Positions 38,485 to 41,897 of a DNA stretch of 64,000 nucleotides are shown piece by piece. How positions within the stretch are numbered: the stretch's first letter is position 1; every line of letters starts with the position of its first letter. Under the pieces are notes generated by a model that was given only the letters and a program-made list of their open reading frames with translations, had not been told where the DNA came from and did not search any database. The DNA comes from Microbacterium phyllosphaerae (GTDB taxonomy: Bacteria; Actinomycetota; Actinomycetes; Actinomycetales; Microbacteriaceae), in contig NZ_JAGIOA010000001.1 in the NCBI RefSeq assembly GCF_017876435.1, forward strand, positions 2,914,001 through 2,978,000. The letters run 5' to 3'. A program made the translations under genes and the position numbers.

Positions 38485-39522
38485 TCAGGGCCGGTGGAAC
38501 GGGTCGTCGTAGAGTCGCTCGGGAACACGCAGCACGAAGACCGGGGTACCGGATGCCCAGATCGCGGCCGCACCGGCGCGCAGCAGATCGATCTGCGAAT
38601 CGCCCTCGGAGACGATCTCGACGTCGGCACCGACGACTCGGACAGCGGCACCGTTGACCGAATGGATGCCGTCCTTCGACGTCACCTCGGGATACGGCTC
38701 GTGCAGCTCGCGAAGGTCGCTGAGGATGTACGTCGGGCGGGATCCTTCAGGAGCCGCGAGCACGTGCTTGGGGCGATCGATTCCGGTGAGCACCAGCGCC
38801 GAGTCGATGCCCGCACGGACCGCACCGAGGATGTCGGTGTCGAGACGGTCGCCGATGAACAGCGGCTTCTTCGCGCCGAAGCGCTCGGTCGCCTCCTCGA
38901 AGATCGGAGTCTCCGGCTTGCCCGCGACCGTCGCGAGACGCCCGATGGCCGTGTGCACGGCCGACACGAGCGTGCCGTTGCCCGGGGCGACACCGCGCTC
39001 ACGCGGGATCGTCCAGTCGGTGTTGGTGGCGATCCAAGGGATGCCGCCTTCCTCCTCGGGAACCTTCAGGGCGAAGGCCGCCTCGGCGAGATCCGTCCAG
39101 GCGACCTCGGGGGCGAAGCCCTGCACGACGGCATCCGGAGCATCCTCCGCGCTCCGGGTCACCGTGTAGCCCGCTTTCTCGGCCTCGTCCACGAGCCCCG
39201 CTCCCCCGACGATCAGCAGCGTCGCCGGAGGCGGGACGATCCCCGCGAGCAGGCGCATGGCGGCCTGCGGGCTGGTGATGACGTCAGCCGGAGCGACGTC
39301 GAGTCCGAGGCTGCTCAAGTGCTCAGCGACCGAGGCGTCGGTGCGTGACGCATTGTTCGTGATGTACCCGAGACGAGCGGTCGCAGCGGCAGCGTTCAGG
39401 CTCTCCACCGCGTACGGCAGCGCACCCGGTCCGGCGTACACGACACCGTCCAGATCCGCCAGCACAGCATCCACCCCGTCGAGGGGCGTACGCAGCGCCG
39501 GCTTCTTGGAGAACAGCCCCAC
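38485..39522 (-). CDS. HAD-IIA family sugar-phosphatase-like protein
   Basis: This 345-residue haloacid-dehalogenase superfamily hydrolase of the NagD/PGP type has motif I DLDGVVYAG near residue 23, motif II TNNASRT and motif IV IGDRLDTDILGAVRAGIDS. These form the usual Mg-dependent phosphatase site with an IIA cap between motifs II and III. An extra domain of about 80 residues follows (from HSVNGAAVRVVGADVEIVSE). The GTG start at 39522 shares one base with the TAG of the repeat-rich gene upstream, so the two are coupled. The substrate is probably a small phosphate ester such as phosphoglycolate or nucleoside monophosphate. Confidence 0.9.
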   Translation of the reverse strand: MGLFSKKPALRTPLDGVDAVLADLDGVVYAGPGALPYAVESLNAAAATARLGYITNNASRTDASVAEHLSSLGLDVAPADVITSPQAAMRLLAGIVPPPATLLIVGGAGLVDEAEKAGYTVTRSAEDAPDAVVQGFAPEVAWTDLAEAAFALKVPEEEGGIPWIATNTDWTIPRERGVAPGNGTLVSAVHTAIGRLATVAGKPETPIFEEATERFGAKKPLFIGDRLDTDILGAVRAGIDSALVLTGIDRPKHVLAAPEGSRPTYILSDLRELHEPYPEVTSKDGIHSVNGAAVRVVGADVEIVSEGDSQIDLLRAGAAAIWASGTPVFVLRVPERLYDDPFHRP

Positions 39523-41897
39523 TACGCCTCCTCAGAGGAGTCGGATGCTGCGCGCTTGTCGTCCTGCTCGACGCCGTTCTGCTCGTCTGCGCCGTCATCC
39601 TCGGTCTCGCCGAGAAGCTCGCGCACCTCGTCGTCGATCGACGGCTCGGGCTCGGGCTCGGGCTCGGGCTCGACGTCAGCGTCAGCGTCAGCGTCAGCGT
39701 CAGCATCAGCATCAGCATCAGCATCAGCATCAGCATCAGCATCAGCATCAGCATCAGCATCAGCATCAGCATCAGCATCAGCATCAGCATCAGCATCAGC
39801 ATCAGCATCAGCATCAGCATCAGCATCAGCATCAGCATCAGCATCAGCATCAGCATCAGCATCAGCATCAGCATCAGCATCAGCATCAGCATCAGCATCA
39901 GCATCAGCATCAGCATCAGCATCAGCATCAGCATCAGCATCAGCATCAGCGGGGGCTTCTTCGGACTGCGGCGTGTGGTCTTCGTCGTCGAAGTCGCCCT
40001 CGATGAGGCCGTCCTCGATGATGATCTCCTCGTCACCGGCTTCGTCGACACCGAGCGCTTCAGCGGCGACCTCGGCTCGATGCGCCCAGAACTCGGCCTC
40101 GTCGGTGCGTCCCAGGTCCTCGAGCACGGCGGCGCGTGCGGCGAAGAGAGCGGGGCTCCATTCGAACGCACGATCGGGATCGAGCTCCGGAATCTCGAGC
40201 TCCCCGAGCGCGAGTTCGAGGTCGCCCTGGTCGAGACGGGCTCCCGACATGGCGATCGCCAGTGAGACCCGCACAGGGGTCGTCAGTGCCGTGCGGTCGA
40301 CCGCACGGCCGGTCTCAAGGGCACGATCGGGGCGACCGATACCGCGCTCGCTGTCGACCATCAGAGCGATCTGATCATCCTTGCCGGAGATCCGGCGATA
40401 CGTGCGGAGCTCACGCAGGGCGAGAGCAAAATCCTCGGTCGCATACGCGGTGATGCCGAGCGTCTCACGGACGATGGCAATACGGCCGGCGCGACGAGAT
40501 GCAGCGAGAGCGTGCTCGTGAGCAAGCGCAGGATCCTCATCGATGAGGCGGGATGCCATCGCCAGGTGACGTGCGACGAGGTCGGCGTTCTCCTTGCTCA
40601 GCGTCTTCAGCTCGTTGCGAGCCGACGTGTGCAGGTCCCGAGCCGTGACATCGTCGGGGATGTGCGGGTCGTTGAACCGCGGACGGTCGCCCGTGGCCTG
40701 CACCGGACGTTCGCGGTCCACACCCCCGCGCTGCGGGTAGGAGCGCGACGAGTCCCGGTCCTGACGGGGCGCACGGTCGTCGCGGTTGTCGCGGTTGTAG
40801 CCACCCGTGCGGGGAGCACCACCGTCGCGGTTGTCACGGTTGTAGCCGCCCGAGCGGGGAGCACCACCATCGCGGTTGTAACCACCCGAACGAGGAGCAC
40901 CACCATCGCGGTTGTCACGGATGTAACCACCCGAACGAGGAGCACCACCATCGCGGTTGTCACGGTTGTAACCACCCGAACGAGGAGCACCACCATCGCG
41001 GTTGTCGCGGTTGTAACCACCCGAACGGGGAGCGCCACCATCACGGTTGTCACGGTTGTAACCACCCGAACGAGGAGCACCACCATCACGGTTGTCACGG
41101 TTGTAACCACCCGAACGAGGAGCACCGCCATCGCGGTTGTCGCGGTTGTAGCCACCTGTGCGGGGAGCACCGCCATCACGGTTGTAACCACCCGTGCGCG
41201 GAGCACCACCATCGCGACTGTCGCGGTTGTAGCCACCCGAACGGGGAGCACCGCCGTCACGGTTGTCGCGGTTGTAACCGCCCGAGCGAGGAGCACCGCC
41301 GTCACGGTTGTCGCGGTTGTAACCGCCCGAGCGAGGAGCACCACCATCACGGTTGTCGCGGTTGTAACCGCCCGAGCGAGGAGCACCGCCGTCACGGTTG
41401 TCGCGGTTGTAACCGCCCGAGCGAGGAGCGCCACCATCACGGTTGTAGCCACCCGAACGAGGAGCACCACCATCACGGTTGTCGCGGTTGTAACCACCCG
41501 AACGAGGGGCGCCGCCGTCGCGGTTGTCGCGGTTGTAACCGCCCGAGCGAGGGGCGCCGCCGTCACGGTTGTCGCGGTTGTAACCACCCGAACGGGGAGC
41601 GCCGCCGTCACGGTTGTCGCGGTTGTAACCACCCGAACGAGGGGCGCCACCATCGCGGTTGTCGCGGTTGTAACCACCCGAACGAGGGGCGCCACCATCG
41701 CGGTTGTCACGGTCGTAACCACCCGAACGGGGAGCGCCACCATCACGGTTGTCGCGGTTGTAGCCACCAGAGCGGGGCGCGTCGTCTCGGCGCGGACCGC
41801 TGCTGCGGTTCTGCTCGGAGCGTCCGCCAGAAGGTCGGTGACCGCGCGATCCATTGTCGTCGTTGCGACGCGGACGGCGCTCTTCCTCTTCCGGCAT
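39522..41897 (-). CDS. Repeat-rich intrinsically disordered protein with RGG-like repeats and (Asp-Ala)n tract
   Basis: This 791-residue protein has four parts. Residues 1-44 are Arg-rich. Residues 45-380 hold 23 tandem units of the type [15 protein letters not shown] (three are 12-residue short units; variants have Asp, Ile, Ser or Thr), resembling RGG/low-complexity RNA-binding tails. Residues 400-640 form an all-helical, TPR-like domain ([54 protein letters not shown]). Residues 650-740 are a pure Asp-Ala tract, followed by an EPEPEPE run and an acidic tail. The start at 41897 has a GGGAG ribosome site. It lies 74 nt after the 5S rRNA gene and is coupled to the HAD gene. The helical domain is the probable functional core. 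An RNA-linked or condensate role is inference. Confidence 0.9.
39675..39950. repeat. Hexanucleotide microsatellite, 46 units, in frame
   Basis: Five GTCAGC units (39675-39704) are followed by 41 identical ATCAGC units (39705-39950). On the coding minus strand they encode alternating Asp-Ala. The 246-bp stretch without one substitution implies recent or ongoing slippage. Because the unit is 6 bp, length changes keep the frame. Confidence 0.97.
40758..41765. repeat. 45-bp tandem minisatellite encoding the RGG-like repeats
   Basis: There are 23 in-frame units (twenty of 45 bp, three of 36 bp) with mostly synonymous differences such as GAGCGGGGA versus GAACGAGGA. The DNA differs more than the protein does, so the amino-acid sequence appears to be under selection or homogenised by recombination. 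The short units lack three residues (one R/D/N triplet). Confidence 0.95.

Follow-up and report, generated by a model that had tools for sequence, protein, structure and literature searches.

Most of the sampled actinomycete genomes carry the gene of an uncharacterised protein, and this gene is linked to an rRNA operon, at the operon's 3' end. Its product is thus a good candidate for a factor still missing from the picture of ribosome biogenesis or rRNA control in the Actinomycetota, a phylum that matters to medicine and industry. The adjacency of this gene, recognised by the conserved core of its product, to the rRNA operon is near certain to be real. Its representative in the window, i.e., the whole stretch of 64,000 nucleotides of Microbacterium phyllosphaerae that was analysed, almost certainly is, from its sequence, the Microbacterium member of an Actinomycetota TPR family that includes Rv1691 and MSMEG_3754. 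In the open-access literature, subscription journals being outside the scope of the search, the family is so far known as an uncharacterised TPR protein and no description of a tie to rRNA operons was found; the link is judged to be undescribed there. For the function of the family we propose, with a probability of about 0.5, an RNA-associated scaffold, acting in assembly or quality control, that would be coupled to rRNA synthesis.

In the window, no other protein cistron comes between the rRNA operon and this gene, which heads a HAD-tlyA-NADK-recN cluster, with a CTP synthase gene beyond recN at the downstream end. The features, in reading direction, are the following:

45705..47227, minus strand: 16S rRNA gene
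42192..45294, minus strand: 23S rRNA gene
41970..42086, minus strand: 5S rRNA gene
41926..41960, minus strand: hairpin between the 5S gene and the start codon, probably the terminator of the rRNA operon (fold z -3.3)
39522..41897, minus strand: coding sequence of 791 residues with an ATG start, comprising a basic repeat tail, a TPR-like core and an acidic tail
40674..41897, minus strand: weakly basic N-terminal tail, residues 1-408 (85 K/R and 59 D/E by residue count; the N tails of relatives are net positive)
40779..41780, minus strand: array of 23 units, APR(S/T)GGYNRD(NRD)GG, residues 40-373 (repeat reading, pN/pS 0.04)
40029..40673, minus strand: conserved helical core, TPR-like, about residues 409-623 (profile matches; TPR Pfam models in 16 of 28 aligned relatives)
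39525..40010, minus strand: acidic C-terminal tail, residues 630-791 (75 D/E and 3 K/R by residue count)
39678..39947, minus strand: (Asp-Ala)45 tract, GCTGAT microsatellite, residues 651-740 (90 residues; codon reading)
39609..39644, minus strand: C-terminal motif of 12 residues (read by eye)
38485..39522, minus strand: HAD-IIA family phosphatase gene in the position of Rv1692 (1-nt overlap with the coding sequence)
38245..38421, minus strand: ORF of 58 codons in the position of Rv1693 (sequence reading)
37451..38248, minus strand: TlyA family rRNA 2'-O-methyltransferase gene
36540..37454, minus strand: NAD kinase gene
34852..36567, minus strand: recN

The build described in the original prediction, with 23 Gly/Tyr/Arg/Asn/Asp units, a helical core and 90 Asp-Ala residues, has been recovered: the coding sequence, the repeats and both tandem arrays were found, and Tandem Repeats Finder independently placed an array with a 45-nt unit at 40783-41768 (score 1230) and one with a 6-nt unit at 39676-39950 (score 522). 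The place of the gene just behind the 5S gene and in the same direction was also correctly read, except that the start codon lies 73 nt, not 74, from the 5S end, with a gap of 72 nt. The predicted coupling to the HAD phosphatase is borne out by the 1-nt overlap of stop and start (TAGTG). Rv1693, whose position the small ORF occupies, we take to be about 58 codons long.

A profile search with the core alone, suggested as a check of the original prediction, retrieved the family in 143 of 150 Microbacteriaceae genomes, generally once per genome. Core matches have also been found in 115 of 119 genomes of the same genus, 113 of 119 of the order, 131 of 148 of the class and 53 of 119 in a sample of the phylum, 10 of these last belonging to the class (43/109 outside it). 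The family is mostly single-copy. It resembles TPR scaffold proteins, in that TPR Pfam models match up to 16 of the 28 aligned cores (TPR_2 for all 16), whereas the window protein differs from them in having no Pfam match at E 1. Furthermore, the 120 relatives among the matches listed in a search with an outgroup core carry TPR Pfam accessions. One sequence search of the PDB gave only weak unrelated matches, and one with the family profile gave no match at 0.001.

The link to Rv1691 and MSMEG_3754 was drawn from gene order and from core homology by way of mycobacterial loci, rather than by direct alignment of either protein. The core profile derived from the window finds a genome (G379) whose core (L123) is up to 97% identical to named Mycobacterium and Mycolicibacterium contigs, and the downstream order of HAD gene, small ORF, tlyA, NAD kinase gene and recN is shared, the order of the M. 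tuberculosis operon around Rv1691 being that given in sections of PMC3072309. The mycobacterial relatives differ from the window protein in their shorter tails (median 58 residues on the N side and 5 on the C side) and in the lack of an adjacent 5S gene at many loci.

Public records name Microbacterium members as hypothetical, primosomal, TPR or DNA polymerase V family proteins. The name "primosomal protein" has no domain match in its favour, and the NCBIfam names of the SdrC and SdrD MSCRAMM adhesins were rejected, with 46 bits against a cut-off of 1700 for SdrC and 46.7 against 2500 for SdrD, both on the Asp-rich stretch only. Public protein searches took only proteins of 0.55-1.75 times the query length, which left full-length long-tailed records out of reach; six of nine public Microbacterium sequences start inside the frame seen in the window, a count limited to proteins up to about 406 residues, from which no frequency of internal starts is drawn. 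One relative seems to have a frame of 11,411 residues, but this frame runs into masked letters and was rejected.

For the class survey, core positions were combined with a separate 5S search in 69 class genomes, leaving out 21 genomes without a 5S found and a weak second core match in one genome (G384). All 48 genomes with a 5S have the core, in 50 strong copies. For 43 of these copies (41/48 genomes), an upstream 5S gene shares the contig and strand of the core and is 136-2360 bp away, with a median of 441, while the chance of a 5S within 3 kb upstream is about 0.0006 per copy (about 0.06%); for the remaining seven copies core and 5S are on different contigs. Fifteen of the class genomes have more than one 5S, and the gene stands behind one of them in 12 and behind both in two, the last genome (G271) having none on the contig. 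Among genomes of the order and class fetched because of their large contigs, seven of which overlap with the set of 48, a 5S was found upstream in 20 of 22, at 3.4 and 5.6 kb before the core in two (G494 and G472), where a long N tail fills part of the distance; two others (G269, G306) show no 5S over about 7 kb upstream. The fetched Microbacteriaceae have a 5S upstream in 16 of 20 cases, and four loci (L031, L036, L038, L048) have none in the stretch examined. Outside the class, 14 loci were fetched from the 43 matches and 10 of them have a 5S upstream; two (L240, L241) have none, and in two (L244, L245) the sequence ends soon upstream. On the other side of the gene, in 24 order and class loci, some of them cut by the sequence end, the HAD gene follows in 20 and TlyA in 17.

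Duplicated gene copies travel with the whole rRNA operon. Two strong copies occur in three of the 148 class genomes (G402, G476 and G411), and all six stand behind a 5S. In the first two of these genomes, a block of about 6.7 kb with 99% identity covers both the rRNA operon and the gene, stopping no more than about 30 bp from where the core match stops, near the gene's end; in each of them, one of the two copies is without a HAD gene in the stretch examined.

The genus Mycobacterium presents a different arrangement. A 5S was found at six of the 22 loci whose upstream sequence extends to about 6 kb or beyond, and none at the other 16; in 14 of these 16 the HAD, TlyA, NAD kinase and RecN genes follow (L190 is cut short and L229 is outside the count). 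The 16 loci are presumably mainly those of slow growers without rrnB. Since they retain the gene, absence of an adjacent operon does not remove it. The conserved position elsewhere might be inherited inertia. All mycobacteria have rrnA, and some have a second operon, rrnB, behind tyrS, according to a part of PMC10218544.

Experimental background comes from mycobacteria as well. In the relevant portions of PMC7092591, a single cross-linking survey aimed at RNA polymerase in nuclease-treated lysates, the proteins that came with the RNA polymerase beta subunit with high confidence number 214 and include the M. smegmatis orthologue, which was obtained with cross-linked RNA polymerase and not with DNA. 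The same orthologue also appears in a ClpC1 interactome. Taken together, the position, the TlyA neighbour, the kept basic tail and the recovery with RNA polymerase point to an RNA-associated scaffold as the best guess, and for a ribosome or rRNA role of the family the chances, judged in this way, appear evenly balanced. The RNA or ribosome role suggested in the original prediction gains from the conserved rRNA position, from the duplication with the operon and from the RNA polymerase data in the portions cited, but not in its charge-block specifics. The same recovery with the beta subunit, along with the mycobacterial loci that keep the gene and its downstream cluster without an adjacent 5S, would also suit a transcription-side factor that binds RNA polymerase or nascent RNA generally and whose rRNA position is merely inherited and has no regulatory meaning; this is unlikely, however, because drift would hardly preserve an adjacency seen in 41/48 class genomes and 10/14 loci outside the class, nor one whose copies multiply with the operon.

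The succession of 5S gene, hairpin, short gap and start codon makes the coupling of the proposed scaffold to rRNA synthesis open to direct testing. Of 75 distinct gap sequences, which differ from each other, 67 contain a stem of at least 10 pairs; because the search for a stem was made within each sequence separately, pairing as such is no proof. The scan took only loci with a 5S motif 20-500 nt before the chosen start and kept the best stem of each sequence, paired by construction, with the fold of the window's own gap as its one control. In the same genus, the distance from the end of the hairpin to the start is 20-36 nt in 21 of 23 distinct gaps, and 51 and 80 nt in the other two (L084 and L086). 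The sole sigma-70-like promoter site between 38400 and 42200 overlaps the start codon, with 0.5 sites expected by chance. The second rRNA operon of this genome matches the one in the window over 5.6 kb, as far as the 5S end, with 99.5% identity; beyond that point come a hairpin of different sequence and other open frames. In the window, the hairpin takes up the interval from 5S to ATG, where a promoter would have little space. Read-through from the rRNA operon is therefore slightly favoured as the main source of mRNA, and a promoter overlapping the 5S gene or the hairpin may be the alternative source. The passages searched of a Propionibacterium RNA-seq study (PMC3848588) do not mention the gene.

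According to the proposed scaffold mechanism, RNA polymerase would read through the hairpin behind the 5S gene and thereby provide the main expression of the gene, so that the amount of protein would follow rRNA synthesis. The basic tail would touch rRNA or pre-ribosomal particles, and the TPR core would dock a protein partner, which may be a ribosomal protein, an assembly protein or RNA polymerase. In members that have one, an acidic tail would limit RNA binding or compete with it. In its most general form, which is put forward only tentatively, one rRNA operon across the Actinomycetota would end in a protein cistron; read-through of the terminator would yield the transcripts for a TPR protein whose tail binds RNA, and each burst of rRNA would make its own assembly or quality-control factor.

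The tails have been compared among relatives whose start codons were set by a simple Shine-Dalgarno rule; the comparison excludes one duplicate, three loci containing masked letters and any tail truncated by a contig end. The N tail is net positive in 198 of 203 cases (46/46 in Microbacteriaceae, 22/22 in the same genus, 40/41 in the order and class, 77/80 in Mycobacterium and 13/14 outside the class). For the C tail, a net negative charge was found in 44/46, 28/28, 40/41, 79/80 and 5/13 of the same groups, with median lengths of 69, 86.5, 39, 5 and 7 residues, respectively, the last two values meaning that C tails are practically absent from mycobacterial and outgroup relatives. Thus a basic N tail, rich in Arg and net positive despite sequence turnover, is widespread, while a long acidic C tail is present in part of the family. 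An order of origin with the core first, then the basic tail and then the acidic tail would fit this distribution, and the charge-segregated build of the window protein, as read from its sequence, appears as a lineage elaboration of the family. The original prediction had regarded this build as without described bacterial counterpart; relatives share it with other repeats, and the charge asymmetry is not peculiar to the window protein.

Within the window protein, the two arrays seem to differ in kind, the repeat units being constrained at the protein level and the Asp-Ala tract derived from slippage. The 23 units follow the pattern APR[ST]GGY[NDI]RD([NS]RD), and among 20 full-length units compared pS is 0.42 and pN 0.017; this ratio of 0.04 suggests constraint on the protein, although gene conversion could account for part of it. 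In the Asp-Ala tract, Ala is encoded by GCT in 45 of 45 codons and Asp by GAT in 41 of 45, a nearly pure codon use that points to recent slippage of one hexanucleotide and marks the tract as what is, by this codon reading, a recent microsatellite version of the acidic tail.

From the arrangement of opposite charge blocks with GY/R repeats, the original prediction had suggested an RNA body; on this reading, the blocks and repeats would drive an RNA-containing condensate. The repeat units, which vary synonymously and hardly in amino acids, and the combination of basic N tail and acidic C tail that is usual in the Microbacteriaceae and in the order and class sets would agree with this reading, which is nevertheless improbable. 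The repeat region called basic is indeed net positive, yet weakly so, at +26 over 408 residues, and "RGG-like" is a loose term for a tail with one RGG. Moreover, the recent origin of (DA)45 and the acidic tail of about 5-7 residues in mycobacterial and outgroup relatives mean that opposite charge blocks cannot be the core mechanism of the family, and one 0.9-Mb genome (L031) has a nearly bare core with hardly any tail and no adjacent 5S. The original prediction had named homologues without both low-complexity regions in the same genetic role as the finding that would speak against it, and one locus outside the class (L242) partly corresponds to this, standing 113 nt behind a 5S, with HAD and TlyA further on; its core is preceded by no more than about 40 residues and followed by no more than 6. 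Nucleolin-type proteins of the eukaryotic nucleolus, which belong to the RG/RGG-box proteins, combine an Arg/Gly-rich low-complexity tail with an acidic stretch in one protein, as the window protein does. In contrast to them, the window protein has a single RGG instead of clustered ones and a TPR-like core in place of RNA-recognition motifs, so that this is a likeness without demonstrated homology. Two or more RGG motifs occur in the N tails of 23/46 Microbacteriaceae, 2/22 same-genus, 24/41 order and class, 4/80 Mycobacterium and 8/14 outgroup relatives.

That the tails are tolerated products of slippage with no specific role, and that the TPR core alone matters, would be in keeping with the wide length variation (N 6-763 and C 3-409 residues, some of the longest C tails being frame fusions to the next gene), with the nearly pure hexanucleotide repeat and with the nearly bare core of L031, but is the least probable of the readings, given the repeat units that hardly vary in amino acids, the N tails that are so regularly net positive and the C-terminal motif of the window, close variants of which recur by eye in 17 of 28 same-genus C tails. 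The family offers a case of rapid turnover of tail sequence with charge kept. In one relative (L037) the basic repeat array lies on the C side of the core instead, which suggests that charge matters more than side.

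The gene encoding the TPR-like core protein is present twice per genome in three relatives, at loci L131 and L132 of genome G402, L133 and L134 of G476, and L256 and L257 of G411, and each of these six copies has its own 5S gene upstream. In G402 and G476, the rRNA operon and the gene together form a 99% identical block.

The absence of the basic tail from six of the nine public sequences read (protein records P0025, P0070, P0089 and P0002-P0004) is due to the placement of the start at an internal Met or GTG. Among the relatives, at locus L037 the basic repeat array lies on the C-terminal rather than the N-terminal side of the core, and a divergent core with almost no tails is retained in a 0.9-Mb genome (L031 / L138, G015), where no 5S gene adjoining the core gene was found. 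At locus L066 (G172) the open frame does not stop after the core but extends into the HAD phosphatase, with a short, odd tail between the two; this represents either a fusion or an assembly or frameshift error.

Over the repeat and Asp-Ala (DA) regions of the gene under study, three long antisense open frames are found, which most probably just mirror the codon repeats on the coding strand:

40512-42116, plus strand, long antisense open frame
39257-40006, plus strand, long antisense open frame
39556-40374, plus strand, long antisense open frame

The window also contains tandem arrays and a riboswitch:

24795-24992, neighbouring tandem arrays of a 7-nt unit, CCACGAG (13 copies), and an 18-nt unit, GAGACGAAACTGCCCCCG (6 copies)
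23594-23645, further 7-nt tandem array
63567-63660, minus strand, TPP riboswitch (Rfam RF00059, 73.9 bits)
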